From the NCBI GenBank assembly GCA_017354415.1, contig JAFMQY010000002.1:1-58605 (forward strand): a stretch of DNA of 58,605 bases, given 5' to 3'. The notes beneath the pieces are model-generated. The model was given only the letters and a program-made list of their open reading frames with translations, searched no databases and was not told the DNA's origin. Source of the stretch: Nocardioides sp. (GTDB taxonomy: Bacteria > Actinomycetota > Actinomycetes > Propionibacteriales > Nocardioidaceae). Below are positions 17,285 to 50,556 of the stretch, in pieces (positions within the stretch are counted from its first letter, which is position 1; each line of letters opens with the position of its first letter). A program made the translations under genes and the position numbers.

Positions 17285-17428
17285 TGCCCCAGGCCAGAGT
17301 CGAACTGGCGGGCCTTTCGCCTTGGGTGGGGCCGGCTGCTCGTGGTCGTGCGGTGGTGCCCCAGGCCAGAGTCGAACTGGCGGGCCTTTCGCCTTGGGTG
17401 GGGCCGGCTGCTCGTGGTCGTGCGGTGG
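17285..17428 (-). repeat. Two identical 72-bp tandem degenerate tRNA-Arg copies
   Basis: 17285-17356 is identical to 17357-17428 (tgccccaggccagagtcgaactggcgggcctttcgccttgggtggggccggctgctcgtggtcgtgcggtgg); first 26 nt identical to the tRNA 3' end at 17429. Confidence 0.9.
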
Positions 17429-17501
17429 TGCCCCAGGCCAGAGTCGAACTGGCGACCTTTCGCTTAGGAGGCGGCTGCTCTATCCACTGAGCTACTGGGG
17501 C
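17429..17501 (-). tRNA. tRNA-Arg(CCU); CCA encoded at 17426-17428
   Basis: RC: GCCCCAG TA GCTC AGTGGATA GAGC A GCCGC CTCCTAA GCGAA AGGTC GCCAG TTCGACT CTGGC CTGGGGC A CCA; acceptor, D and T stems intact; two mismatches in anticodon stem. Confidence 0.85.
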
Positions 17502-28260: not shown

Positions 28261-28364
28261 GCGTCGGGCTCACTTGAGTCGAATGACTGAGATTCGTGCA
28301 GAATCCCCGGGGGTCAGGTGAGCGATCGGGGCGAGAGAGACCCGGCGCGAGCGGGAGGACGACT

Positions 28365-31136
28365 GTGACGACTGCCAGTTCGAGCAAGAACATCAGCGAG
28401 AGCCGCGATTCGCTCGTGGGGCGTGGTCGGGAGTTGCAACAGCTTGACGGGCTGGTTGATCGGATCGGGACCAGCGGCGGCACGCTCGTGGTGCGCGGGG
28501 CGGCCGGGATCGGCAAGTCGGCGCTGCTCGCGGCTGCCAGCGAACGGGCCCGAGGTCACGGGGCACGGGTCGTGGTGACCGCGGGAACGCAGTCGGAAGC
28601 ACATCTGGCTTTCGGCGGACTGCACCAGCTGCTGCAGCCTTTCCTGGGCCGTCATGTCCAGCTCCCAGAGCCTCAGCGCCGAGCGCTCGACGTGGCCTTG
28701 GGCATCACCAACGGGCCGGCACCGGACCTGTTCCTGATCGGTCTCGCCACCCTCGGCGTGCTCACCGAGGCCGCCGAGACGACTCCTCTGCTCCTGGTGG
28801 TGGAAGACGCCCACTGGCTGGACCGCTCCTCGGCGCAGGTGCTCGCCTTTGTGGCCCGGCGGCTCGAGATGGAGGTCGTGATTCTGCTCTTCGCGGTGCG
28901 CGACGGGGTGACGGGCGGCGTCTTCGAAGACTCGGGTCTCCCTGAGCTGGGGCTCCAGCCCCTGGACGACGATGCGTCGCGCGCACTCCTCCAAATCCGC
29001 AACTCCGTCCTGCAACCAGAGTTGCGGGAGCGGATATTGACCGAAGCCGCCGGTAACCCCCTCGCCCTGATCGAGCTTCCACGTGCCGTCGCCGGGCTCG
29101 ACAGGGTCGCGCCCGAAGAGCCGCTGCCGCTGACGGCGCAGCTGAAAGCGGCGTTCGCGTCTCGGCTGAACACGCTGGAGCCGGAGATCCGCACGCTGTT
29201 GCTGCTCGCGGCATTGGATGACCGCGAGGTTTCCGAGCTGACCCGAGCCGCCGAACACCTCTTTGAGGGCAGGCGCGTGTTCCTTCACGACTGGGTCGCG
29301 GCCGCGGCCACCGGGCTGGGCAGCCTCGAGACCGGAACGTTCCGATACCAGCACCCCCTGATGAGATCAGCCGTGTACGAGGCGGCCGGCGCCGACCAGC
29401 GCCGGCGGGCGCACCTGGCTCTGGCGGAGGCGTTGACGAAGGACCCTTACCGGACGGTTTGGCATGAGGCTGCGGCAGCGGAGGGGACCGACGAGGGTGT
29501 CGCGTCCGCTCTCGCAGACATGGCCGACCAAGCGAAAGCCCGAGGCGATCTCGAGGCCGCCTCATCGGCCATGCGGCGCGCGGCTACCCTGACCGCCGAC
29601 CCCACCCTCCAGGCGGCACGGCTACTGGGTGCCGCCGACCTCACCCTGGAGCAGGGCCGCGGCATCGACTGCATCCCGCTCTACCGAGAGGCGCTCCGGG
29701 TCGGCCTACCCCCCCACGACGCGGTGCGAGCATCGTTCACGCTCGAAGCCATGTCGAGCGCATGGTCGGGCGCCTCGGCCATCCCCCGCTTCGCCGAGAT
29801 CGCCGAGGAGCTCGTCGGCCGCGGCGACGCCCACGCAGCGCTGCAGGCCCTGGCCACGGTCGGCATGCGCGCATTCTTGGGGCCCCTACAAGACAGCACC
29901 AGGCAGCGTGTGTCGGCCATCGCCTCGGGGCTCGCCGTACCGACAAACGACCCGCAACGTCTCGCGACCCTGGCACTGGTCGACCCGGTTCACCGAGGGG
30001 GCGAGGTCATACAGCAACTCGAGCGCATCTCACCCCTCGACGTCATCGACGCCCGAGACCTGACCGCACTCGGGGAAGCAGCCTCGGCCGTGTGGGCCGA
30101 CTCCCTCGCCGGCCCCCTGCTGACGGCCGGAGTGGAGAGCCACCGGGCGGACGGCCGGCTGGTCTGGCTCGCCCAGACCCTCACACTTCAAGCGTGGGTC
30201 GACGCCAGACGGGGCGCAGTCCGCGAGGCGATGACCGCCGCAGCCGAAGCTTCCAAGCTCGGCATCGAAACCCGCCAGCTGCGCTACACCCTGGTCGCCA
30301 ATCTCGCGCACGCCATCGCCGACGCCGACATCGGAGAGGCGGACCGATCCCAGCAGATGATCGCGGACGTCGAGGCGGCGCTGATGCCGATGGGCGCCCA
30401 TCCACTACTGGCCCTCGCCACGTTCGCCCGCGGCCGTACCGCGCTGGCCGCCGACCGCCCAGCGGAGGCGTACACCGACCTGATTCGGATCTTCAACCCG
30501 ACCGATGTTGCCTTCCAACCCTTCGTCCAGGGATGGGCGCTCGCCGACCTGGCAGAGGCAGCCCTTCATGGCGACGGCGACCTCGACCTCGTGGACGGCT
30601 TCATGCGCCGTTGGAGCGAGGTCGCCACCTCAGCCGGCGCCCCGTCCCTGAGAGTTCAACTCGCGTACGTGGAGGCCATGCTCGCCGACGATCGGATCCC
30701 ACCCGACCGGTTCGAGGCCGCGCTCACGAGAGGCGCCGACGGGTCACCGTTCTACCTCGGCCGTGCACAACTTGCCTACGGCCAGTGGTTGCGTCGACAA
30801 CGACGAGACATCGAGGCACGCGAACCTCTGCGAGAGGCCACGCAGGTCTTCGACGCCCTCGGCCAGCGTTGTTACGCCGACCGCGCCCGACGAGAGCTAC
30901 GCGCCACAGGTGAACGCCCCCGACGCCGCCACCCCGACGCCTGGACACAACTCAGCCCCCAGGAACTCCAAATCGCACAGCTGGCTGCCGAAGGACTCTC
31001 AAACCGAGAAATCGGCCAACGCCTCTACCTCTCACACCGAACCATCGGAACCCACCTCTACAACCTGTTCCCAAAGCTCGGCATCACCGCCCGCGCACAA
31101 CTCCGCGATGCGCTCAACGCGCCGCCAGACGAGTAG
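28365..31136 (+). CDS. LuxR-family large ATP-binding (LAL) regulator
   Basis: LVGRGRELQQLDGLVDRIG...VVRGAAGIGKSALL Walker A; C-terminal LSPQELQIAQLAAEGLSNREIGQRLYLSHRTIGTHLYNLFPKLGI. Confidence 0.93.
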   Translation: MTTASSSKNISESRDSLVGRGRELQQLDGLVDRIGTSGGTLVVRGAAGIGKSALLAAASERARGHGARVVVTAGTQSEAHLAFGGLHQLLQPFLGRHVQLPEPQRRALDVALGITNGPAPDLFLIGLATLGVLTEAAETTPLLLVVEDAHWLDRSSAQVLAFVARRLEMEVVILLFAVRDGVTGGVFEDSGLPELGLQPLDDDASRALLQIRNSVLQPELRERILTEAAGNPLALIELPRAVAGLDRVAPEEPLPLTAQLKAAFASRLNTLEPEIRTLLLLAALDDREVSELTRAAEHLFEGRRVFLHDWVAAAATGLGSLETGTFRYQHPLMRSAVYEAAGADQRRRAHLALAEALTKDPYRTVWHEAAAAEGTDEGVASALADMADQAKARGDLEAASSAMRRAATLTADPTLQAARLLGAADLTLEQGRGIDCIPLYREALRVGLPPHDAVRASFTLEAMSSAWSGASAIPRFAEIAEELVGRGDAHAALQALATVGMRAFLGPLQDSTRQRVSAIASGLAVPTNDPQRLATLALVDPVHRGGEVIQQLERISPLDVIDARDLTALGEAASAVWADSLAGPLLTAGVESHRADGRLVWLAQTLTLQAWVDARRGAVREAMTAAAEASKLGIETRQLRYTLVANLAHAIADADIGEADRSQQMIADVEAALMPMGAHPLLALATFARGRTALAADRPAEAYTDLIRIFNPTDVAFQPFVQGWALADLAEAALHGDGDLDLVDGFMRRWSEVATSAGAPSLRVQLAYVEAMLADDRIPPDRFEAALTRGADGSPFYLGRAQLAYGQWLRRQRRDIEAREPLREATQVFDALGQRCYADRARRELRATGERPRRRHPDAWTQLSPQELQIAQLAAEGLSNREIGQRLYLSHRTIGTHLYNLFPKLGITARAQLRDALNAPPDE

Positions 31137-31284: not shown

Positions 31285-32049
31285 TCAAGCTCGGGCCTCG
31301 GATGGCGACTTCGGCCCGAACGCCTCGAGGACCACGGAGTCGGACGGGACACTCAACAGGTTCTGTGCGAGGAACTCCTCAATCCCCGGATAGCCGGCGG
31401 CACGCGCCCGCATCAATGCGGCGGCGGCCTGGAGGTCGTAGGCGGTCCGGCACAGCGTGACGGCGGGGCCGAGCAGCGCCCAGTGGGCGCCCGGGTTGCC
31501 GTAGGGCATGCCGACGCTGCCGGGGTTGACGAACCGGCGGCGATCGGCGAGCCGGTCGAACGCCATGTGGGTGTGTCCGAGCACCACGATCTGCTCCTCG
31601 ACGCCAGGGAAGCATTCGGCGAAGCGAGCGACCGGGGAGTCGACGAGCACGATCTCGGTGTCGCTGCGCGTGGTGGCGTGGCAGAACCGCACCGGGCCCA
31701 GCCCGTCGAGGTCGAGGCTCACGTCGAGCGGCAGTCCGGCGAGCCGGTCGCGCTGCTCACGGGAGATTTCCGTGGCCGCGTACTCGGTCGGCGGGATCGC
31801 GGCGGGATGCAGGTCGGGCGTCAACGTGCCGTCGTAGGCGTTGACGACCTCCCGGTCGGCGTTGCCCCGCACCCACACCGCCCGCTCGCCAAGAGACTCC
31901 AGCAGCGACAGTGCCTCGGCCGGCATCGGCCCGGTGACGAGGTCCCCATTGAGCACGATCACGTCCACACCCGCCGCGTCGACATCGTGCAGCACCGCCT
32001 CCAGCGCGGGCAGGTTGCCATGGATGTCGGCGAGAACGGCGACACGCAT
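31285..32049 (-). CDS. Calcineurin-like metallophosphoesterase
   Basis: MRVAVLADIHGNLPALEAVLHDV...VIVLNGDLVTGP...VLGHTHMAF. Confidence 0.93.
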   Translation of the reverse strand: MRVAVLADIHGNLPALEAVLHDVDAAGVDVIVLNGDLVTGPMPAEALSLLESLGERAVWVRGNADREVVNAYDGTLTPDLHPAAIPPTEYAATEISREQRDRLAGLPLDVSLDLDGLGPVRFCHATTRSDTEIVLVDSPVARFAECFPGVEEQIVVLGHTHMAFDRLADRRRFVNPGSVGMPYGNPGAHWALLGPAVTLCRTAYDLQAAAALMRARAAGYPGIEEFLAQNLLSVPSDSVVLEAFGPKSPSEARA

Positions 32050-32470
32050 CTCGGCATCGTATGACCGTGCCGCGAGAGGCACGGGCCAACTGCCACGCTC
32101 AGATCGGCCAAGCCAAGGACGCAGTTGGGCGCCCTCGAGGTGACCGGCCACCACGAAGCGATCATCCGCGTCCTGACCCGGCCCGACCCAGGTGCGCGCC
32201 AGGACCTACACGGCCCGCACTGCGCGCAGCGAACGCGGGCCAGGATGTCCCCAGATCACCACGACGTCCCAGCGCCACCGACCAAGGGAGTTGAGACATC
32301 GTGGGCCCGTGTCCCGGCGAAGTGGGACACCTCCCCGGGGCCTCTCGGAGGGGATCTGGGGGGTTCCGCCTCCGTTTCGCCCCGATACGCCAGAGCTGGC
32401 CACCGATCCCACGCCCCCAGCGGTGTCGATCCGACACCAACTCAACTGCCAAGCCGCGCGAATGTACCTA

Positions 32471-32498
32471 TTGACAGAAGATTATAACTTTGTATGGT
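32471..32498 (+). promoter_or_regulatory. Consensus-like promoter for GntR operon
   Basis: TTGACA (32471) - 16 nt - TATGGT (32493); AT-rich island in GC-rich DNA. Confidence 0.6.
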
Positions 32499-32505
32499 TT
32501 GTGGC

Positions 32506-33282
32506 GTGACGGCGGTGACCATGGAGCAGCGTCTGGCGGCGGAGGTTCGTCGGCACAGCCCGACGCCGTTGCACCATCAGATCAAGGTGGCGGTGCTTCA
32601 GGGCATCGAGCAGGGGTGGCTGCGGCCGGGGACGCAGTTGCCGCGGGAGCGGCGGTTGGCCGAGGCGCTCGGTGTGAGCCTGGCTCCGGTCCGGCAGGCG
32701 ATGCTCGACCTGACCAAGGAGGGCTACGTCGACAGGACGCGCGGCAAGGGCACCTTCGTCCGTGAGCGCAAGCTGATCGAGAAGATCCAGATCCTGGGTA
32801 GCTTCCACGGCTCGATGCGCCAGCAGGGGCTGGATCCCGTTGTCCGGGTCCTGAGCTCCACGATCGAGCGGGCGTCGGACCAGGTCGCGGAGGCGCTCCA
32901 GTTCTCGGGACGCAGGCGCGTGTGGTCCTTGCGCAGGCTTGCGATCCTCGAGGACATCCCGGTCGCGCTGCTGTCGGCTTGGCTGCCCGCGAGCTACCAG
33001 AAGGGCATGTCGTCGCGGGACTTCGGTGAGGGGTCGTTGTACGAGGCGCTGGCCGAAGTGCATGGAGTCGAGATGACCTCGGCGGACAACCTCGTGGAGG
33101 TCGGCAGAGCGGGCCTGGATGATGCTGACCTTCTCCAGCTCACGCCCGGCAGCCCTCTGCTGGAGGTCTCCGGGGTCACCCGGGACCAGCGGGAGCAGCC
33201 GGTGGAGTACTCCCGGGTGCTCTACCGACCTGAGCACTTCCGCTTCGCCATCGAGAGCCGTCGAGGCGAGAACAACCACTGA
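32506..33282 (+). CDS. GntR/UTRA (HutC-type) transcriptional regulator
   Basis: PLHHQIKVAVLQGIEQGWLRPGTQLPRERRLAEALGVSLAPVRQAMLDLTKEGYVDRTRGKGTFV; start GTG 32506 or ATG 32521. Confidence 0.92.
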   Translation: MTAVTMEQRLAAEVRRHSPTPLHHQIKVAVLQGIEQGWLRPGTQLPRERRLAEALGVSLAPVRQAMLDLTKEGYVDRTRGKGTFVRERKLIEKIQILGSFHGSMRQQGLDPVVRVLSSTIERASDQVAEALQFSGRRRVWSLRRLAILEDIPVALLSAWLPASYQKGMSSRDFGEGSLYEALAEVHGVEMTSADNLVEVGRAGLDDADLLQLTPGSPLLEVSGVTRDQREQPVEYSRVLYRPEHFRFAIESRRGENNH

Positions 33283-33334
33283 CTCGGGGCCCGGACGGGC
33301 ACCAGGGAACCAACCGCAGCACTGGAGGAACGAC

Positions 33335-35005
33335 ATGGCAGAGGTCTCGATCCCCTCAGACTTCTCCGAGGGTGGACAGCTGTTCGTACGGAACGCGACC
33401 GGCCTCGTCCGGGAGGTGTCCAAGTGGGACGCCCTGATCATGAACACGCTGGGCATGAACGTCGCCCTCGGCGCGGTGTTCATGCTGTTGCAGGCGCCCG
33501 GCAACTTCCCCGGCGGCAGCATGCTGCTCTCGATCGTGATCGGAACGCTCGTGATGGCGTTCACCCTGCTGTGGGTCTACGCCGAGTTCTCCGCGGCGAT
33601 GCCGCGCTCCGGAGGCGACTACGTGTTCGTGAGCCGGGCGCTCCACCCGATCGCGGGCTGGCTGCTCGCGTTCAGCCAGGGCATGTGGTTGATCTTCTTC
33701 TGGATCGGCTTCAACGCCTGGTTCTGCCTGACGTTCGCAGCCCCGGTCGCTCTGACCACCATCGGCGCGGTCACCGGTCATCAGGGCTTCATCACCCTGA
33801 GCGACAACCTCGTCGGTGACCACACCTTCCTGGGGATCACCACCGCATGGTGGGTGATCGTCGTTGGTGCCGCACTGACGCTTGGCTTCATGGCCCTGCT
33901 GATCTACGGCGCCCAGTGGTACTGGCGGGTGCAGAAGTGGCTGTTCGCCCTCGCCGGGCTCAGCATCCTGCTGGTGGCGGCCCTGCTGCTGCTCAAGAGC
34001 GGCGACATCGCCGCACGGTGGAACGACCTGGCCGCGACCAACCACGGGCTCGCCTACAACGACGTGATCGCGACAGCCAAGTCGGCCGGGTTCAACCCGA
34101 CCCACAGCTTCAGCCTGAGTGCGACGATCCTGATGCTGCCCTGGGTCTTCTTCGTGGTCGGTTACGCCCAGGGCTCTGCCCAGATCGGCGGCGAGGTGAA
34201 ACGTGCGAGCCGCACCCAGTACTTCGCCATGGTGGGCGGCGTCCTGATCAACGGGGCCGTCTTGGCGGGCATCGTGCTGATCTACCAGCACGCGGTCGGA
34301 CACCAGTGGGCGAACAGCCTCAGCTATGTGAGCAACACCGCCCCCGACAAGCTCGGCACTCCCGGCGGGGTCCCGGCCAGCATCAACTACCTGGCCAGCA
34401 TTCTCACCGGCAGTGTCCCCCTGCTGCTGCTGATCGGTATCGGGTTCATCCTGTGGGCTCTGATGGGGACACCCCTGTCGGCCCTGCAGGCCACCCGCTA
34501 CGTGCTCGCCTGGTCCCTGGACCGGACTGTGCCTCGCCAGCTCGGCGAGGTCAGCGACCGCCACCACACCCCGGTCAAGGCGATCCTGCTCTGCGCGGTC
34601 ACCGGCACCGCCGCCCTGGTCGCCCTGGTCCAGATCCCACAGGCAAGCCTGCTCGGTGCGCTGATGGCCCAGATCGCCGCCTTCATCCTGGTCAGCATCG
34701 CCGGAATGGTCTTCCCCTACCGGCTCCCCCAGATCTGGGAGGGCGGCGGCGGACGACGCATCCTCGGCATCCCCGCGATCACCCTGGCCGGCCTCGGCGG
34801 CGTCATCGCCCTGGGCGGGCTGATGGTCATGTTCATCTTCAACAACACCGTGAACGCCACCTTCGCTGCCACCCGCGGCCTCTCGCTGAAGTTCATGATC
34901 GGCGTGATCGTCGTCGGCGCGATCTGGTACGCCGCCAGCTGGGCCCTGAACAGGCGGCGGGGCGTCGACCTGTCCCTGTCCTACCGAGAGATCCCGCCCG
35001 AGTGA
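33335..35005 (+). CDS. APC-superfamily amino acid permease
   Basis: About 12 hydrophobic segments; AEFSAAMPRSGGDYVFVSRALHPIAGWLLAFSQG. Confidence 0.92.
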   Translation: MAEVSIPSDFSEGGQLFVRNATGLVREVSKWDALIMNTLGMNVALGAVFMLLQAPGNFPGGSMLLSIVIGTLVMAFTLLWVYAEFSAAMPRSGGDYVFVSRALHPIAGWLLAFSQGMWLIFFWIGFNAWFCLTFAAPVALTTIGAVTGHQGFITLSDNLVGDHTFLGITTAWWVIVVGAALTLGFMALLIYGAQWYWRVQKWLFALAGLSILLVAALLLLKSGDIAARWNDLAATNHGLAYNDVIATAKSAGFNPTHSFSLSATILMLPWVFFVVGYAQGSAQIGGEVKRASRTQYFAMVGGVLINGAVLAGIVLIYQHAVGHQWANSLSYVSNTAPDKLGTPGGVPASINYLASILTGSVPLLLLIGIGFILWALMGTPLSALQATRYVLAWSLDRTVPRQLGEVSDRHHTPVKAILLCAVTGTAALVALVQIPQASLLGALMAQIAAFILVSIAGMVFPYRLPQIWEGGGGRRILGIPAITLAGLGGVIALGGLMVMFIFNNTVNATFAATRGLSLKFMIGVIVVGAIWYAASWALNRRRGVDLSLSYREIPPE

Positions 35006-35075
35006 GCACCGGCCAAGATCCAGGTTCGACCCGCCAGACAGCGATCCAGCAGACAGCTACCCGGAAGCGCACGGA

Positions 35076-37178
35076 GTGAAGAACACACCTGACCCCTCGG
35101 GCCACAGCGGCCGTGTCGTCGTCGTCGGGAACCTGACCATCGACGACGTCGTCCTCGCCGACGGCACCACCCTGATGGCCACCCTCGGCGGAAACAGCGT
35201 CCACACCGCGGCCGCAGCGGCCGCCTGCGGCGCCCCGGTCGCACTGGTTGCCCGCCGAGGCGAGGACTTCCCCGCCGACGCCTTCACGCGGCTGCAGACC
35301 GCGGGAGTCGACACCACCGGCGTCGTGGACATCCCCGGACCGACAGTGCGGAACTGGGTGATCTACGAGCCGGACGGACGCCGGCACTGGGTGTACCGCA
35401 CACCCGCAATCCGCTCCGCCGAGGTGGCGCCGCTCCCGGCCGACGTCGCGGCGACCGCACGAGACGCCCGTGTCGTCCATGTCGCCGCGATGCCGCTGGC
35501 TAACGCCGAGGCCGTGGTGGATCAGGTACGCCGAACCACGCCCGACGCGCTGGTCACACTCGACACCCACGAGGGGTGGGCCGACGAACCCCCGACCCGC
35601 GTCCTCGCCCTGGCCGCCTCGGTGGATCTGTTCGAGCCCAGTCTCGAGGAGCTCCAGGCCCTCACCGGCGATGCCACCGCAACCGGCGGCCTTCGCGCTC
35701 TGGCCAATGCCGGAGTCCGACACGCGGTGGTCAAGGCTGGAGCGGACGGCGCCTACGCCCTCGCCGCCGAAGCAATCGTGCACATTCCGGCGCTCCAGAC
35801 CCCGGTGGTGGACACCACCGGGGCAGGGGACTCCTTTTGCGGGGGCGTCGCCGCCGGCCTCGCCCGGGGCCTGGAAACGCTGCCTGCCGTGGGACTGGGG
35901 GTGGCCGCCGCCGGCACGGCGATCACATCCTCGGGGAGCCTCCGTCTGCTGGACCACGACACCGAATTGCTGCTGGAGATGGGCCGCGACCGCACCGCCC
36001 GCGCCAGCGCGGTCCCCCCAGCCCCGCCCCGCGTGGCCGACCCCACTACCGGCAGGGAAGGCCCGCGGGACGAAGCGGCCTACGACATCGAGGTGATGCG
36101 CCGGGAGATCGAGATGATCCCCGACGTCGTGTCGGACGTGCTCGACGACACCGACGGCCACATTCGCCGGCTGGGCCGCGCCCTGGTCGACCGCGAGGTC
36201 GAGCACCTGTGGCTGACCGGCTGCGGGGACAGCGCCTTCGCCGGACACGCGGCCGCCTTGGCGTTCCAACGCCACACCGGGATCACCGCTCACCCGGTCC
36301 ACGCGCTCGACTTGGCCCGATACCTGCCCCGCGCCCTGCCCAAGGCCAGCGCCGTCGTGTGCGTGTCCTTCTCCGGCAAGGTGGGCCGCACCACCGAAGC
36401 AGCCATCCAGGCCCGTCGCTTCGGACACCCGGTCTTCGCCCTGACCAACACCGCCGACAGCCAGCTCGGCCGCGCCGTCGACGAGGTCGTGCCGCTCGAG
36501 GTCACCACACTCGGATTCTCCCCGGGCACCTCGACCTACGTCGCGATGCTCGGCAGCCTCCTCCGGCTCGCCGCCGAGGTAGCCGCCCACCGCGGACAAG
36601 ACGGCACCCTCGGGCGGGCACTGGTCCGGCTCCCCGCCTCCGTCGCTGACACCCTCGAGTTGACCCGACCAGTCGCCGCAGACTCTGCCCGGCTGATGCT
36701 GGCCGCACCGTGGACGACCTTCCTCGGAGCCGGCCCCAACGAGGCGACCGCCAAGTTCGGTGCCGCCAAGCTCTTCGAGGGCCCACAACGGCTCGCCGTG
36801 TCCACCAACCTCGAGGAATGGGCGCACGAGGAGTACTTCGTCACCTCACCCGGTGACCCAGTCGTTCTCGTCAACCCGACCGGAGCCGGCCACAACCGGG
36901 GTGTCGAGATCCTGTCCGAGCTCCGCTTCATCGGCGCCACCCCCGTCGTCGTCTCCGATGCCGAACCCGACCGTCGCCTCCCCGGTGAGCTCTGGCTGCC
37001 GCTGGCGCCCGACGTGACCGAGGAGCTCTCACCGGTCACCGCAGCCCTGCCCCTGTCCCTGGTCGGGTTCCACCTGGCCCAGCTCGTCGGCAAGCAGTCC
37101 TACAACTTCCCCAGCGAAGCCGCGCGCACCGAGCATTACCAGACCATCCACCGCGCCACGATCGGAGAACCCGCATGA
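35076..37178 (+). CDS. Fusion protein: PfkB sugar kinase (N-term) + SIS isomerase/deglycase-like domain (C-term)
   Basis: GNLTIDDVVLADG..LGGNSVHTAAAAAACG and DTTGAGDSFCGGVAAGL (PfkB); LWLTGCGDSAFAGHAAALAFQ, VCVSFSGKVGRTTEA (SIS). Confidence 0.92.
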   Translation: MKNTPDPSGHSGRVVVVGNLTIDDVVLADGTTLMATLGGNSVHTAAAAAACGAPVALVARRGEDFPADAFTRLQTAGVDTTGVVDIPGPTVRNWVIYEPDGRRHWVYRTPAIRSAEVAPLPADVAATARDARVVHVAAMPLANAEAVVDQVRRTTPDALVTLDTHEGWADEPPTRVLALAASVDLFEPSLEELQALTGDATATGGLRALANAGVRHAVVKAGADGAYALAAEAIVHIPALQTPVVDTTGAGDSFCGGVAAGLARGLETLPAVGLGVAAAGTAITSSGSLRLLDHDTELLLEMGRDRTARASAVPPAPPRVADPTTGREGPRDEAAYDIEVMRREIEMIPDVVSDVLDDTDGHIRRLGRALVDREVEHLWLTGCGDSAFAGHAAALAFQRHTGITAHPVHALDLARYLPRALPKASAVVCVSFSGKVGRTTEAAIQARRFGHPVFALTNTADSQLGRAVDEVVPLEVTTLGFSPGTSTYVAMLGSLLRLAAEVAAHRGQDGTLGRALVRLPASVADTLELTRPVAADSARLMLAAPWTTFLGAGPNEATAKFGAAKLFEGPQRLAVSTNLEEWAHEEYFVTSPGDPVVLVNPTGAGHNRGVEILSELRFIGATPVVVSDAEPDRRLPGELWLPLAPDVTEELSPVTAALPLSLVGFHLAQLVGKQSYNFPSEAARTEHYQTIHRATIGEPA

Positions 37179-37942
37179 CCGCGCCCCTCAACGACGTCGT
37201 GGCCGAAGGCCGGCGTCTCGTCGAGTCGGCGGCGCCCGACCTGCGGATCCGGCTGCTCGGCGGCGTCGGAGTCGCCCTGCACGACCACCGCCCGGTGCCG
37301 GCTGCCCTCGAACGCGGCTACGGCGACCTCGACGTGGTCGTCCCGCCCAAGTCGGCCAGGCAGACCACCGCCGCCATGACCGCCGCTGGATACGAGCCGA
37401 ACGAACGGTTCAACGCCCTCCACGGCGCCCAGCGGATGCTGTTCTACGACACCGATCACAAGCGGCAGGTCGACGTGTTCGTCGGCGTCTTCGCGATGTG
37501 TCACCGCCTCGACCTATCCGCACGCCTCGACCAGCACCCCTACAGCCTCGACGCCGCCGACCTGCTGCTCACCAAGCTGCAGATCCACCAGATCAACCGC
37601 AAGGACCTCGTCGACGCCGTCCGCCTGATCCTGACCCACGACAACGTCGACATCACCGGCGGCGGCGAAGGCACCACCCACGCCATGTCCTTGGACCGCC
37701 TCCGCTCGGTCACCTCGACCGACTGGGGATGGTTCACCACCGTCACCGACAACCTGCAGCTCGTCCGCGCCGCCGCATCCGAGCTCCTCGAACCCGAGGA
37801 CGCCGGGCTCGTGGAGTCGCGCGTCGACCAGATCGACACCGGCCTCCGGGCCGCACCCAAATCGATGCGGTGGAAAGCGCGCAGCGTCATCGGCCGAAAG
37901 ACACCCTGGTACGAGCTCCCCGAAGAAGTAGGAGGTGCCTGA
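37175..37942 (+). CDS. Nucleotidyltransferase-fold protein
   Basis: RIRLLGGVGVALHDH...RGYGDLDVVVPPK...KRQVDVFV...SLDAADLLLTKLQIHQINRKDLVDAVRLI; 4-bp overlap with upstream gene. Confidence 0.72.
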   Translation: MTAPLNDVVAEGRRLVESAAPDLRIRLLGGVGVALHDHRPVPAALERGYGDLDVVVPPKSARQTTAAMTAAGYEPNERFNALHGAQRMLFYDTDHKRQVDVFVGVFAMCHRLDLSARLDQHPYSLDAADLLLTKLQIHQINRKDLVDAVRLILTHDNVDITGGGEGTTHAMSLDRLRSVTSTDWGWFTTVTDNLQLVRAAASELLEPEDAGLVESRVDQIDTGLRAAPKSMRWKARSVIGRKTPWYELPEEVGGA

Positions 37943-38895
37943 TGAAAGACACGAAGATCTTCTTCGCCACCGACATCCACGGCTCTGACGTGTGCCTGCG
38001 GAAGTTCCTCAACGCCGGCAAGTTCTACGGTGTCGACGCCGTCGTCATGGGGGGCGACATCACCGGCAAGATGATCGTGCCCATCGTGGAGGAGACGCCC
38101 GACGAGTACGTGGCCCATCTGTTCGGCCGACGCCGTGTCGTGGACTCAACCGGGCTGCCCGGACTGCAGAAGTTCATCGCCGACGCCGGTTTCTACCCCC
38201 ACCACATGAGCCCCGACGAGATGACGGCCCTCCGAGCCGACCCCGCGGCGGTCGACGAGCTGTTCCAGAAGATGATGACCGAGACCATGAGCCGATGGGT
38301 CGACATGGCCGAGGACCGCCTCGGCGGCACCGGCGTCGAGGTGATCTTCGCCCCCGGCAACGACGACCCGCTGTTCGTCGACGACCTGCTCAGCGGCAGC
38401 GACGTCGTGGTGAATCCCGACAGCCGGGTCATCGAGCTCCCCAGGGGCTACCCGATGATCTCGGTCGGCTACTCCAACCGCACCCCCTGGGACTCCCCAC
38501 GGGAGCTCGACGAGGACGACCTGCGGAAGGTCATCGACGAGGAGGTCGCCAAGCTCGACGACCCCCGGCGTGCCGTGTTCAACCTGCACGTCCCACCCAA
38601 GAACACCCCGATCGACCAGGCGATGGAGCTCGACGCCGAGTTCCGACCCGTCGTGAAGGGCGGCTCACCGGTCATTACCGGGGTCGGCAGCTCCGCGGTC
38701 CGTGACGCCATTGCCACCTACCAGCCGATGATGAGCCTGCACGGCCACATCCACGAGTCCCGCGGCGAGGCCAGGATCGGCAAGACCGTCGCCCTCAACC
38801 CCGGCAGCGAGTACAGCGAGGGCCTGCTCCGCGGCGTCATCATCACTCTGTCGCAGAAGAAGGGCCTCCGTGGCTACCAGCTCGTCTCCGGCTAA
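37942..38895 (+). CDS. Metallophosphoesterase
   Basis: KIFFATDIHGSDVCLRKFL...VVMGGDITGK...APGNDD...LHGHIHESRG; start overlaps upstream stop. Confidence 0.9.
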   Translation: MKDTKIFFATDIHGSDVCLRKFLNAGKFYGVDAVVMGGDITGKMIVPIVEETPDEYVAHLFGRRRVVDSTGLPGLQKFIADAGFYPHHMSPDEMTALRADPAAVDELFQKMMTETMSRWVDMAEDRLGGTGVEVIFAPGNDDPLFVDDLLSGSDVVVNPDSRVIELPRGYPMISVGYSNRTPWDSPRELDEDDLRKVIDEEVAKLDDPRRAVFNLHVPPKNTPIDQAMELDAEFRPVVKGGSPVITGVGSSAVRDAIATYQPMMSLHGHIHESRGEARIGKTVALNPGSEYSEGLLRGVIITLSQKKGLRGYQLVSG

Positions 38896-39463
38896 AACAC
38901 GCGCCGGCGACACCATCGAGGTCGGCGTCATCGGCTCGGCCAGGATCGACCCCGGCGACCCGCGCTATGCCGACGCCGAACGCCTTGGCCGAGCCCTCGC
39001 AGCCGAGGGCTGGACCGTCGTGACCGGCGGCTACGGCGGCATGATGGGCGCCACCTGTGCCGGCGCGGCCGCCCCCCGCGGCCCCACCGTCGGACTGCCC
39101 ATGTCGGACTGGAAACACCTCACACCACACGAGAGCAACGCCGAGCTCCGCTGGGCCGTCGATTACGCCGAGCGAATCCGCCTTCTGCTGGCAAGCGACG
39201 TCGTCGTCGCCCTGCCCGGTGGCATCGGCACCCTCAGCGAAGCAGCAATGGTCTGGGCTGCTGCGCAAACCGAACCCGACGCCGCGCAGCTCATCCTGGT
39301 CGGCGAACAATGGCGAGAGCTCCGCGACGCCATCGGCACCGGACTCGTCGTCGACTCCGACGACCTCGCCCTGGCCCGGTGCGTGAGCACCGTCGACGAC
39401 GTGGTGGGCGCCATCCACCAAGCACTCCACCGACCCGGCAACGCGCGCGGCGCCCGCGGCTGA
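38870..39463 (+). CDS. SLOG / LOG-like nucleotide-binding protein (TIGR00725-like)
   Basis: VGVIGSARIDPGDPRYADAERLGRALAAEGWTVVTGGYGGMMGATCAGA...VVALPGGIGTLSE. Confidence 0.9.
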   Translation: MATSSSPAKTRAGDTIEVGVIGSARIDPGDPRYADAERLGRALAAEGWTVVTGGYGGMMGATCAGAAAPRGPTVGLPMSDWKHLTPHESNAELRWAVDYAERIRLLLASDVVVALPGGIGTLSEAAMVWAAAQTEPDAAQLILVGEQWRELRDAIGTGLVVDSDDLALARCVSTVDDVVGAIHQALHRPGNARGARG

Positions 39464-39510
39464 GCGCACCTCCACGGTTCGCCGGCCCGCTGGACACCCA
39501 GGGAGAACCC

Positions 39511-40395
39511 ATGACACCCCACGGCGAGTGGATCGACTTCACACCCCTGAACGCCCACGCCCCGGCTCAACCGCTCGGCGTCCAGTGGATCCACGGCTCG
39601 CCCTCGGCCAAGCACAACACCGACCCCGACATCCAGGTCCACTGGCACGACGAGCACACCGTGATCCTGCGGCAGAACAAGGCGATCGACTACGAGGCGC
39701 CGTTCATGTTCCTGCTGTTCGGGAACCACCGCGCCGTCCTGATTGACACCGGAGCCACCGAGTCTGCCGAGTTCTTCCCGATCCGAGCGACGATCGACCT
39801 CCTCATCGCGGAATGGCTGAACGGCCACCCACGAGCCGACTACCAGCTCGTGGTCCTGCACAGCCACTCCCATCACGATCACCTCGCCGGCGACGCGCAG
39901 TTCGTCGACCGCCCTGGAACAACCGTGGTGCCCGCGAGTCCCGCGGCGGTGTACGGCTACCTGGGGCTCACGGCTGAGCTGGACCGCCCGGCCCGCCTCG
40001 ACCTCGGCGGGCGGATGCTGGACTGCATCGCGAGCCCCGGTCACGACGCTGCCGCCGTCACCTTCTACGACGCGTTCACGGGGTTCCTTCTGACCGGAGA
40101 CACCGTCTACCCCGGTCGCCTCTACGTCAGGGACTGGCCCGCCTTCGCCGCGACCATCGACCGGCTGGTCACCTTCGCCAAGGAGCACCCGGTCAGCCAC
40201 GTGCTGGGCTGCCACATCGAAATGACCACGACCCCCGGCGCGGACTACCCGATCCGAACCACCTACCAGCCAGACGAGCCCCCGTTGGAGATGTCTGTTG
40301 ACCAGCTGCACGACGTCCACCGCGCAGTGAACGAGATCGAGGACCGGCCCGGCCGGTACGAGTACCCGAACTTCGTCATCCAGCACCTGGGCTGA
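39511..40395 (+). CDS. MBL-fold metallo-hydrolase
   Basis: VVLHSHSHHDHLAGD, ASPGHDAAAVTFYD, FLLTGDTVYPGRLY. Confidence 0.92.
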   Translation: MTPHGEWIDFTPLNAHAPAQPLGVQWIHGSPSAKHNTDPDIQVHWHDEHTVILRQNKAIDYEAPFMFLLFGNHRAVLIDTGATESAEFFPIRATIDLLIAEWLNGHPRADYQLVVLHSHSHHDHLAGDAQFVDRPGTTVVPASPAAVYGYLGLTAELDRPARLDLGGRMLDCIASPGHDAAAVTFYDAFTGFLLTGDTVYPGRLYVRDWPAFAATIDRLVTFAKEHPVSHVLGCHIEMTTTPGADYPIRTTYQPDEPPLEMSVDQLHDVHRAVNEIEDRPGRYEYPNFVIQHLG

Positions 40396-45657: not shown

Positions 45658-46449
45658 ATGTGGGTTCTGCGCAGCTATGAGGAATGGCTCGAGTTAGTCC
45701 GCGACCTCCTCAATCACCCCTCGCGGGAGTTCCCACGAATCCAGGTCCACATGCAACTCGCGAGCACCCTCGACACCATGGTGTCCTGGAACTGGGAAGA
45801 GCCCGATGGTTCCTATGGGGTCGAGTTTTCGCACCCGGTCTCACGCTGGCCGACCGCCGAGTCCTTCGAGATGTGGGAAGGCGGCGTTCGAGACCTTCAC
45901 CCGCTTCTCTGCTGGTTCCGCGGCACAGAAGACCCCCGACCGATGTCGTTGGGCCGTGTCCCGGACACCTACATCGCTCCTGGCGCGATGGAGCTCACCC
46001 GCGAGTTCAGCGCCCCGGTCGGCGCCGATCAGCAGCTGTCCATCCCGTGCTTCGTCGGCAACGGTTACCGTGCGTTCGTCGCGGCCAAGAGCGGGGATGA
46101 CTTCAGCGACGAGGCACTCCAGTTGGCCCGGCGCATCCAGCCCCTCCTGGCCCTGTTGTGGTTGCAGAACGCGGCCCTGGAGCGATGCCCCGACCACGAC
46201 GAGTCGTCGGGGCTGACCGGCCGCGAGCTCGCGGTGCTCCAACTGCTGGCCGACGGGCTGACCGCCGAGGCGATCGCACGCCGGCTCGGGATCTCCCCGC
46301 GAACGGTGCACTGCCACCTGGCACATGTGTACCGCAAGCTCGGCGTCGCCGACCGGATGCGGGCGGTCCTCGTCGCCCAGGCTGCCGGACTCGTCACCCT
46401 CGACCACAAGCCGGAGCCGGGATTGGACCGGACCACGTCGGACGTCTGA
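45658..46449 (+). CDS. LuxR-type HTH regulator
   Basis: C-terminal LTGRELAVLQLLADGLTAEAIARRLGISPRTVHCHLAHVYRKLGVADR; start at ATG 45658. Confidence 0.9.
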   Translation: MWVLRSYEEWLELVRDLLNHPSREFPRIQVHMQLASTLDTMVSWNWEEPDGSYGVEFSHPVSRWPTAESFEMWEGGVRDLHPLLCWFRGTEDPRPMSLGRVPDTYIAPGAMELTREFSAPVGADQQLSIPCFVGNGYRAFVAAKSGDDFSDEALQLARRIQPLLALLWLQNAALERCPDHDESSGLTGRELAVLQLLADGLTAEAIARRLGISPRTVHCHLAHVYRKLGVADRMRAVLVAQAAGLVTLDHKPEPGLDRTTSDV

Positions 46450-46528
46450 AGAGCAAGTCGGTAGAACTACTGATCGCGCGTCCTACGTGACTGGAGGGAG
46501 CCTGGAACCTCGGGGGAAGGAGCCCGCC

Positions 46529-48775
46529 ATGTCCGTGTCCGGCGCTGCCCATGACCGGTCGAACGCTCGGGGTCGCATCCGCAGGTGGCGCGTGCACGGG
46601 CTTGCGCTGGTGGCGGTCATCGCCGCTCTCGCCATGCGGCCGACGTCGCCGGCGGGCGCTGACACCGGTGATCCGGTCTCAGCGCCCGCATCCGCCGCCG
46701 TCCCGGACGTCCTCACCGGCGACACCTGGCTCCGCCACCACCGCGAGGACCTCATGCCCTACTGGGATCAGCCGGCCGCGCTCGGCGATCCGGTGGGGAA
46801 CTTCCCGTCCTTCCGCGACCGTAACGGTGACCTCATCCCGGCGAGTCCGGACACCCAGGACAGCTCGGACCCGAGAGCTCTCTCGACCCTGGCCCGACAG
46901 GTCTACGGCTACTCCCTGTCGTTCATGCTGACCGGTCAGGACCGGTACCTCACCTACGCCAAGGCCGGGCTCGACTGGATCGACGCACACGCCAAGGACC
47001 CGGTGTACGGCGGCTACTACGGCGACCTCAACGCGGACGGCAGCCCGGTGAATCCCCAGGGAAAAAAGGACCTGTTCGACCTGGCCTCCCTCGGGCTGGC
47101 GTACGGCATGTACTTCAACGTCACCCGGGACCCGGCCGTCGAGAACGAGCTGCTCGCCGTACGTGACCTGATCTTCGACAAGTACTACGACCCGGCCCAG
47201 CACCGGATGAAGGACTCCCTGACCTATGACCTGTCCACCGAGGTGGACACCGGGGGACCCGGAGAGAACATCACCGATCTCCTCATCCCCGCCACCGCGG
47301 TTTCACTGTCCAACTGGGCGCTGCTGAGCGACCCCGCCCGTCAGACGCAGTTCAAGAACGACCTGCGCGAGCTGGTCTCGATCCTCATCGCGAACCACAA
47401 GAACGACGGCGCCACGAACCCGAACAACCGGTTCTACTTCTGGGGACCCAGCGGCAGGTTCGGCAGTTTCTCCTCGCTGGAGACCGACTTCGGTCACAAC
47501 CTGCTGAGCTATGCGGTCATCTACGACGCCAACCACCTCTTCCCGGACCGTCCCTGGGACGGCCTGAGCGACGACCGCGCCCGGCTCCTCTCGCATGCGT
47601 GGGACGGCGCGGCGTCACGGTGGAACGAGCGCATCGTGCGGAGCTTCGCGACGGGCAACGTCGAGCCGGACAGCGGGTGGTGGATGCACGACGAGGGGGA
47701 CCAGCTGCTGGCCACGCTCGACCTGTCCGAAGGCTTCACGAACACCGCCCAGATCGACCAGCTCGCTCGGAGTGCCCAGACCTTCCTCGACATCTACGTC
47801 GACCGCGACCCGGCGTACCCGGCCCGCGAGACGTTCGCCCGGATCGACAACGTCGGCGACCAGACGGACCTGCGCAAGACCTTCGCCGGCAAGAACATGG
47901 ACCACAACTTCGAGCACGCGCTGATCATGTACCTGCACGGTCAGGCTCTCGAGGGGAAGCCCGCGACCCTCTACTACGCCTTCCCTGCCGACCAGGCACT
48001 CACGGCCGTCGCCGAGCCCTACTGGTTCAACTCGGCCGGCCAGACCCGCACCGTCACGCGTGATGTCAGCACCCTGGCCGGGCACAAGGTCGTCGAGGTC
48101 TCCTTCACCGGCATCGGCCAGGCAGCCGGCGAGCCCTACCCGGCGCCGAACGACACCACGGCACCGACGACGACCGTCACGAGGTCACCCGACGCGAACC
48201 AAGCCGGCTGGAACGACGGACCGGTCACCCTCGATCTGAATGCCACGGACGACCCCGGAGGCGTGGGCGTCAAGGAGGTCCACGTCCTGATGGACGACCA
48301 GGCCGGGCTCACCCCTGACCGCGCCGTCATCGAGCCCGGCGCCCATGCCACCGTCACCCTGAGCTCCGAGGGCGACTACGACGTCAGCTACTACGCAGTC
48401 GACCTGCTGGGCAACCGCGAGCCCGTGCAGACGACCCGCGTCCGCGTGGACCGCACCCCGCCGACCGTGTCCGGCCTTCCGGAGCAGCCGTGTGCGATCT
48501 GGCCGCCCAACGACCGCATGGTCACCATCGCCCACGTGGTCGGAGCGGACGCCCTGTCCGGACTTGCCGACCTGACGGTGGACGTGACCGCGGACGAGCC
48601 CGACGCGGGCGACGTCCTCGTCGACGGTGGCACGGTCCAGGTGCGCGCGTTCCGCGACGACGAAGGCGACGGCCGGGTCTACACCGTGACGGCCACCGCC
48701 ACCGACGCCGCGGGCAACGTCACCGTCGGACAGGGCACCTGCACCGTGCCGCACGACCAACGCGGAGGCCACTAG
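46529..48775 (+). CDS. Secreted AGE-like (alpha/alpha)6-barrel protein with Ig-like C-terminus
   Basis: Signal peptide; QVYGYSLSFMLTGQDRYLTYAKAGLDWIDAHAKDPVYGGYYGDLNADG; C-terminal TTTVTRSPDANQAGWNDGPVTLDLNATD. Confidence 0.8.
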   Translation: MSVSGAAHDRSNARGRIRRWRVHGLALVAVIAALAMRPTSPAGADTGDPVSAPASAAVPDVLTGDTWLRHHREDLMPYWDQPAALGDPVGNFPSFRDRNGDLIPASPDTQDSSDPRALSTLARQVYGYSLSFMLTGQDRYLTYAKAGLDWIDAHAKDPVYGGYYGDLNADGSPVNPQGKKDLFDLASLGLAYGMYFNVTRDPAVENELLAVRDLIFDKYYDPAQHRMKDSLTYDLSTEVDTGGPGENITDLLIPATAVSLSNWALLSDPARQTQFKNDLRELVSILIANHKNDGATNPNNRFYFWGPSGRFGSFSSLETDFGHNLLSYAVIYDANHLFPDRPWDGLSDDRARLLSHAWDGAASRWNERIVRSFATGNVEPDSGWWMHDEGDQLLATLDLSEGFTNTAQIDQLARSAQTFLDIYVDRDPAYPARETFARIDNVGDQTDLRKTFAGKNMDHNFEHALIMYLHGQALEGKPATLYYAFPADQALTAVAEPYWFNSAGQTRTVTRDVSTLAGHKVVEVSFTGIGQAAGEPYPAPNDTTAPTTTVTRSPDANQAGWNDGPVTLDLNATDDPGGVGVKEVHVLMDDQAGLTPDRAVIEPGAHATVTLSSEGDYDVSYYAVDLLGNREPVQTTRVRVDRTPPTVSGLPEQPCAIWPPNDRMVTIAHVVGADALSGLADLTVDVTADEPDAGDVLVDGGTVQVRAFRDDEGDGRVYTVTATATDAAGNVTVGQGTCTVPHDQRGGH

Positions 48776-49645: not shown

Positions 49646-50425
49646 TCAGCCGGTCGCGCTGCCCGCGAGGTCGGCGGCCGCCAGTGCCACCTCGGAGGCG
49701 ATCCGGCCGGGGACATCGTCGTCGGCGACGGCCACGACCACCGCCCACGCCGGGTCCGTACGGGTAGGGCGCGGCACCAGGGCGGCGGTGCACGAGACGC
49801 CGTCGCGGAACTCTCCGTGCTCACTCACCAGCGCACGGTCGGGGATCGACCCCAGCTCCGCCTCGAGCTGCTCGACGTCGGTACGGGTGCGGGAGGTGAA
49901 CGGACGCAGCTCGTGGGTCTCCAGGAACCGATGTCGCTGACGGGGGGTCATCGCGACCAGCAGCGCCTTGCCGAGGGCGGTCGCGTGCGCGGAGACGTCC
50001 AGGCCGACCTCGAAGTCCTCCAGGTACGGCGACCCCGCGGCCTCGGCGACCTCCACCACCGTGACCCGCTCGTCCTGGAGCAGGCCGAGGTAGGAGCTCA
50101 GCCCGACCCGTTCCGAGAGCTGTCGCAGCACCACGGCCGCGTCCGGCGGGCGATCCAGCGACGTGACGAGGTCGCGGAACCTGCGGGCGACCGACTCGCC
50201 GATCACGTAGGTCCCGTTGGGGAGCCGCGCCAGGTAGCCCTCATAGGCGAGCGTGCGCACGAGGTGATAGCTCGTGGAGATGTTCAGCTCGCACTTGCGG
50301 GCGATGGCCTTGACGGGAAGACCCGGTTCGCGGCCGACTGCCTCCAGAACTCGGACTGCGCGGCCGACACTCTGCACGAAGTCGTCCGGTCGGTTGTCAT
50401 CCCGGACCCGGTCATCAGGCTCCAT
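49646..50425 (-). CDS. IclR family transcriptional regulator
   Basis: FVQSVGRAVRVLEAVGREPGLPVKAIARKCELNISTSYHLVRTLAYEGYL; IclR effector domain. Confidence 0.92.
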   Translation of the reverse strand: MEPDDRVRDDNRPDDFVQSVGRAVRVLEAVGREPGLPVKAIARKCELNISTSYHLVRTLAYEGYLARLPNGTYVIGESVARRFRDLVTSLDRPPDAAVVLRQLSERVGLSSYLGLLQDERVTVVEVAEAAGSPYLEDFEVGLDVSAHATALGKALLVAMTPRQRHRFLETHELRPFTSRTRTDVEQLEAELGSIPDRALVSEHGEFRDGVSCTAALVPRPTRTDPAWAVVVAVADDDVPGRIASEVALAAADLAGSATG

Positions 50426-50556
50426 CGCACACCTCACCACAGCCATCGCCCCCTCGGCTGTGGACCCATCGTAGGCAGCCGCCTCGGGGCCCACCGTTTC
50501 GTGATGTGAAATCCGAGGGGCTGTCAGGGCCACGGGAGCGGCGCGAAACTGGCGGC

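Follow-up and report, generated by a model that had tools for sequence, protein, structure and literature searches.

The 58,605-nucleotide stretch of Nocardioides sp. contig JAFMQY010000002.1 analysed here (the window) carries, at positions 32506-40395 of the + strand, seven genes coding respectively for a GntR/UTRA regulator, an APC permease, a PfkB kinase fused to a double-SIS domain (PfkB-SIS), a nucleotidyltransferase (NTase), a metallophosphoesterase (MPE), a SLOG protein and a metallo-beta-lactamase-fold hydrolase (MBL). The APC, NTase and MPE genes form a three-gene module that had not been described, obligately linked and co-evolving whatever the downstream pathway, and the window holds a real uptake-and-breakdown operon. 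The co-directional and tightly packed arrangement reported by the original prediction was confirmed for all seven genes by open reading frames (ORFs) and domain scans.

Linkage and distribution of the permease module

The distribution of the APC (33335-35005), NTase (37175-37942) and MPE (37942-38895) genes was analysed in 398 Actinomycetota genomes with a joint NTase and MPE query followed by a reciprocal APC query. NTase/MPE were detected in 51 of these genomes, nearly all outside the class of the window, and the APC in 46, of which 45 also harbored NTase/MPE (Fisher 1e-51). An NTase or MPE gene was located at 6 kb or less from 57 of the 63 APC genes, on the same strand for 54 and within 200 bp for 50. 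In eight genomes, every APC match at E 1e-10 belongs to such a module. All 20 fetched neighbourhoods displayed an APC permease beside an MPE/NTase pair, in at least five gene orders, with three exceptions to the complete arrangement: MPE without an NTase match (L067), NTase about 6 kb away (L074) and APC on the opposite strand (L075). Two MPE paralogues flank one APC gene in L066, L067, G204:C142, G282:C107 and G347:C34. An apparent APC-MPE fusion in L076 (879-aa ORF) was rejected, its N-terminal part being a frame artefact and the APC lying in another frame.

The linkage extends to plasmids. Of the 72,556 plasmid records searched, two matched the APC query (Halobellus and Thermomicrobium); the MPE query yielded the same two, adjacent to the APC gene in both, and the NTase query gave a match in Halobellus. 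The archaeon Halobellus limi carries aldehyde dehydrogenase (ALDH)-MPE-NTase and APC genes. The distances in the three protein trees were correlated (APC-MPE 0.92, NTase-MPE 0.88, APC-NTase 0.80; 0/999 permutations), to which shared species history also contributes, so that linkage is the stronger argument. In each tree, the window protein (APC, NTase or MPE) falls among those of the module, and the permease carries the terminal motifs described below.

The partner genes of the module vary from one locus to another: a DAO/GCV_T (sarcosine-type) oxidase with a choline-kinase-like gene, a sulfatase with ALDH and a choline-binding-like protein, an agmatinase with nitrilase, ALDH and an HDAC-type deacetylase, a type III glutamine synthetase, or BtpA with an FGGY kinase. 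Since NTase and MPE are linked to the APC while the partner pathways differ, they most likely serve the transporter and are not pathway add-ons. The suggestion that the four enzymes added to the operon handle a nucleotide-like or toxic intermediate was thus not retained for these two. An anti-phage defence reading of NTase and SLOG was rejected, PADLOC giving only weak partial matches (23 and 15 bits). In the open-access literature, nothing relevant was found on the module, on PF14907 or on PfkB/SIS with purine genes, and no system with the full gene set, in agreement with the original prediction.

Conservation of the operon core and its catabolic half

A GTDB genome scan with the fusion (35076-37178) as query returned 18 loci, whose neighbourhoods were read by tblastn of the window proteins. 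The fusion homologues are 51-58% identical, and the order GntR-APC-PfkB/SIS-NTase-MPE-SLOG is the same in ten other Actinomycetota loci; it was seen in Nonomuraea, Planotetraspora (three species), Microbispora (two), Sphaerisporangium, Actinacidiphila and a Streptosporangiaceae metagenome-assembled genome (MAG). Because these first six genes recur in order, the arrangement is more than chance, and the expected conservation of gene linkage was found for all of them. MBL was rejected as a conserved component, as it occurs in none of the homologous loci. Two freshwater MAGs (L017 and L019) carry the same core without a detected GntR gene, and partial versions exist in Ktedonobacteraceae and a Chloroflexi MAG. 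PfkB and SIS are separate but adjacent genes in L006, L017, L019, L021 and L023-L025; their fusion in some lineages and adjacency in others supports a functional coupling of the two.

The original prediction had described the operon as frl-like, with a kinase and deglycase acting on an Amadori product. The E. coli fructoselysine operon frlABCDR was used as membership control, by BLAST against FrlA, FrlB, FrlD and FrlR and by a SIS tree. Both operons combine a GntR/UTRA regulator, an APC permease, a PfkB kinase and a SIS protein, the permease and regulator pairing being shared at superfamily level only. GntR/UTRA is 27% identical to FrlR (1e-26). The other similarities are of superfamily level (FrlB, 20% identity; FrlD, 26%, 2e-6; FrlA, a 45-residue stretch), and the profile scores do not indicate an FrlB-type deglycase (PRK11382, 20.9 bits for a cut-off of 430) or an FrlD-type 6-kinase (PRK09813, 42.8 bits for a cut-off of 247). 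FrlC, the epimerase, was not found in the operon, and the window operon adds NTase, MPE and SLOG whereas homologous operons carry ureide genes. In the tree, the whole SIS group, distant operons included, forms its own clade, apart from FrlB, GlmS and AgaS, whereas by profile the GlmS score exceeds that of FrlB. The catalytic Glu and His are kept (KLFE...EEWAHEEYF), a pair found in both GlmS and FrlB. The tree separation and this conserved pair point to SIS-type phosphosugar chemistry in an operon that is apparently not an frl member; of the initial description, the PfkB-SIS coupling and the operon conservation stand and the frl identity does not.

These data make it improbable that the APC imports a glycated amine which PfkB would phosphorylate on C6 and SIS convert to glucose 6-phosphate and amine: the shared superfamilies, the FrlR likeness and the Glu/His pair speak for such a route, but the FrlA, FrlB and FrlD comparisons, the missing FrlC and the purine/ureide neighbourhoods speak against it. 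We regard as equally doubtful a model with an amino sugar as substrate, SLOG acting as sensor and SIS as a deaminase of GlmS/NagB-II type. GlmS (75 bits) and NagB-II (51 bits) are indeed the best NCBIfam matches of the SIS part, but both scores lie far under the cut-offs and linkage to purine/ureide genes is found in two independent operon types.

These neighbourhoods are informative on the substrate. In nine loci, AllB and an Asp/Glu-racemase-like protein directly follow SLOG, and allantoicase comes next in eight (it was undetected in L013); in L011, AllB reached 535 bits (NCBIfam cut-off 358) and allantoicase 366 bits (cut-off 278). L017 has BtpA in place of AllB after SLOG. In nine actinobacterial loci, the six core genes are thus immediately followed by genes of allantoin/ureide operons (AllB, allantoin racemase and, except in L013, allantoicase), whereas classical allantoin operons are devoid of PfkB-SIS, SLOG, NTase and MPE and the window copy is devoid of ureide genes. 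Distant homologues, about 30% identical and of the same SIS clade, lie in operons of adjacent PfkB and SIS genes with BtpA/SgcQ, accompanied in Mesorhizobium, Bacillota and Spirochaetes by a BMP-type ABC transporter. Their neighbours include XDH-type subunits, a cytosine-deaminase-like protein, an NCS1 symporter, a D-hydantoinase, a uridine-phosphorylase-like protein and 2-hydroxy-3-oxopropionate reductase (tartronate-semialdehyde reductase). They differ from the window operon by a nucleoside-type ABC transporter instead of an APC, by the presence of BtpA and by the absence of SLOG, NTase and MPE. Such PfkB-SIS-BtpA(-BMP ABC) operons, themselves uncharacterised, were observed in L006, L021, L023, L024 and L025 (Alphaproteobacteria, Bacillota and Spirochaetes), with nucleobase/hydantoin genes nearby. 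Because two different operon types share such neighbours, nucleobase/ureide chemistry is indicated. The Amadori pathway is not in agreement with this linkage to allantoin, purine, nucleoside and hydantoin genes, whereas the nucleoside-phosphosugar pathway proposed as its alternative fits these neighbourhoods. As a separate observation, a Streptosporangium plasmid (L007, 578-8954) carries BtpA and SIS genes beside FolE, QueE, QueD, phosphoribosyltransferase, NUDIX and phosphotransferase genes, a cluster that looks like deazapurine-nucleoside biosynthesis using the same SIS family.

The SLOG protein (38870-39463; PGGIGTLSE motif, LDcluster4 3.5e-21, Pfam SLOG cluster 4/Lysine_decarbox) is a putative nucleotide-type N-glycoside hydrolase. 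Its best PDB matches are LOG phosphoribohydrolase structures (E 1e-14, 5wq3), and it shares the fold and the PGGxGTxxE motif of the LOG cytokinin-riboside 5'-monophosphate phosphoribohydrolases, but its score against the LOG equivalog NF058542 (41 bits) is far under the cut-off of 300. The family identities of the catabolic proteins, their conserved catalytic residues and their association with genes of allantoin, purine and hydantoin metabolism are direct observations. In the proposed pathway, PfkB would phosphorylate the imported compound, the LOG-like SLOG would release the base from the phosphorylated product by hydrolysis of the N-glycosidic bond, and SIS would isomerise the sugar phosphate or itself deglycate it. 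Judged from the neighbourhoods only, the likeliest substrate is a phosphorylated N-glycoside whose aglycone is a purine or ureide; the imported compound may be an oxidised purine nucleoside or a ureide carrying a ribosyl or other glycosyl group.

The window operon has no allantoinase or allantoicase gene. AllB copies lie on other contigs of the same genome, where no allantoicase match was obtained at 1e-8. One of these contigs (L026, G000:C345) carries a purine-degradation cluster with uricase-like, OHCU-decarboxylase-like, AllB, ureidoglycine-aminohydrolase-like cupin and XDH-like genes, whose identities, except that of AllB, were read from the sequence; a released ureide could therefore be processed there.

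Operon layout and genomic setting

The GntR/UTRA (HutC-type) regulator gene (32506-33282; Pfam UTRA 1e-34, GntR 5e-18) is separated by 52 bp from the APC gene (AA_permease_2 5e-19), itself followed after 70 bp by the fusion gene, which encodes 700 aa with PfkB at residues 16-288 and a double-SIS region at about 340-690 (Pfam SIS match at 376-492). The fusion and NTase genes overlap by 4 bp, NTase and MPE by 1 bp (TGATG), and MPE and SLOG by 26 bp; a 47-bp gap precedes the last gene, the window-specific MBL (39511-40395; Lactamase_B 3e-9). A promoter-like site TTGACA-N16-TATGGT was located at 32471-32498 (+), the only sigma-70-type match in 8.6 kb (shuffle mean 0.3). The transcription start predicted from it, at about 32506, coincides with the GTG codon of the regulator and is compatible with a leaderless start.

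The first 14.6 kb of the window are collinear with same-genus chromosomes, and contamination of the MAG contig was rejected on this ground: the contig belongs to the genome and is chromosomal. The 41.0-58.6 kb flank showed only scattered matches. No other genome among 198 relatives gave a match to the fusion at E 1e-60, and the operon is therefore probably an acquired accessory element; viral contigs gave no match to the fusion either. A tRNA-Arg(CCT) gene at 17426-17501, beyond the end of the same-genus synteny, is a possible border of an accessory region. Near the upstream side of the operon lie a gene for a 946-aa AAA/LuxR-type regulator (28296-31136) and, just upstream, a YfcE-like metallophosphoesterase gene (31288-32154, -) of a Pfam family (Metallophos_2) different from that of the operon MPE. 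A GlcNAc 2-epimerase-like protein near an IclR regulator (46325-48775 and 49646-50533) may belong to a separate sugar cluster.

A proposed nucleotide-based uptake switch

The NTase is a minimal, NTP_transf_5-like enzyme scoring 29.1 bits against PF14907, under the gathering score of 31.2, and the calcineurin-like MPE also scores under its Pfam gathering score; both are for this reason considered as divergent families. All 30 of the 30 modules compared keep the catalytic Asp51, Asp53 and Asp100 of the NTase and the complete set of metal ligands of the MPE. The NTase structure model (pLDDT 86) resembles LnuA/ANT enzymes, the closest solved fold being that of LnuA/ANT(2'') (TM-score 0.62 by target length, 15% identity), from which the NTase differs by an extra C-terminal helical part and by its constant position beside a permease and a phosphoesterase. 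The MPE model (pLDDT 78) resembles the uncharacterised calcineurin-like phosphoesterases aq_1956 and TT1561. The module permeases are only 25-30% identical overall, yet their cytosolic ends are conserved: an N-terminal FxRx[AS][ST]GLxR was found in 28 of 30 (FVRNATGLVR in the window) and a C-terminal E[ILV]P in 30 of 30 (YREIPPE in the window), and FrlA has neither.

On this basis, we propose that two units, one for uptake and one for catabolism, are joined under one GntR regulator. In the uptake unit, the NTase would add a nucleotide to the permease or to a small regulator and MPE would remove it, switching uptake on or off by reversible nucleotidylylation. The conserved permease ends would be candidate docking or target sites, with the N-terminal Ser/Thr as candidate modification site. 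Nucleotidylylation is known to control nitrogen uptake and assimilation in GlnD-PII-AmtB and GlnE-GlnA. The window module likewise ties an NTase-superfamily enzyme to the uptake of a nitrogen compound, but it has no PII, a separate MPE instead of a bifunctional enzyme and an APC instead of Amt, and its control would be of the type proposed here.

Two other roles of the NTase have to be weighed. It could adenylylate the imported substrate for trapping or activation, MPE later removing or cleaving the nucleotide, in a group-translocation-like uptake. Such a role is compatible with the fold, which is that of small-molecule adenylyltransferases, and with the linkage to transport; however, the agmatinase, sulfatases and sarcosine-oxidase-type partners degrade unrelated free compounds by ordinary enzymes, several of these compounds have no obvious common acceptor group, and a cycle that attached a nucleotide only to take it off again would be futile. 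We consider this role rather unlikely. Little weight is given either to a small CdnE-like nucleotide signal that would gate the APC, with MPE as its phosphodiesterase: CdnE is the top E-value match of the NTase model (2e-4), though at a low TM-score, and the MPE fold is of phosphodiesterase type, but the NTase is short and devoid of CdnE/OAS architecture, and no ligand-binding effector domain was seen on the APC.

Several observations weigh against the switch or against the proposed catabolic route. The structural match best supported for the NTase, LnuA, modifies a small molecule, and the Thermomicrobium roseum plasmid carries APC-MPE-nitrilase with no detectable NTase. The allantoin genes of the window genome lie away from the operon, and the nine loci with AllB and racemase genes (eight with allantoicase) come mostly from one order and are not independent. 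Amino sugars or ketosamines are the usual substrates of such SIS domains, and the distant PfkB and SIS operons are devoid of SLOG. Taking these points into account, the combination of a switched APC uptake module and an N-glycosyl purine/ureide catabolic unit under one regulator has, in our opinion, an even chance of being right. More tentatively, and as a possibility somewhat short of that, the module may represent a new class of transporter control or energisation, in which APC permeases of deep-branching Actinomycetota, Chloroflexota/Thermomicrobia and haloarchaea would be switched by NTase and MPE, through nucleotidylylation or a private nucleotide signal, and reused across unrelated nitrogen-compound pathways, here with an undescribed N-glycosyl purine/ureide route.

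If true, bacteria and archaea would share a portable nucleotide-based uptake switch, overlooked because its enzymes, lying among ordinary catabolic genes, carry no annotation beyond 'nucleotidyltransferase' and 'metallophosphoesterase', and dozens of orphan genes would become testable transporter regulators. The catabolic half, if true, would bring sugar-linked forms into purine/ureide salvage via an unusual fused kinase-isomerase.

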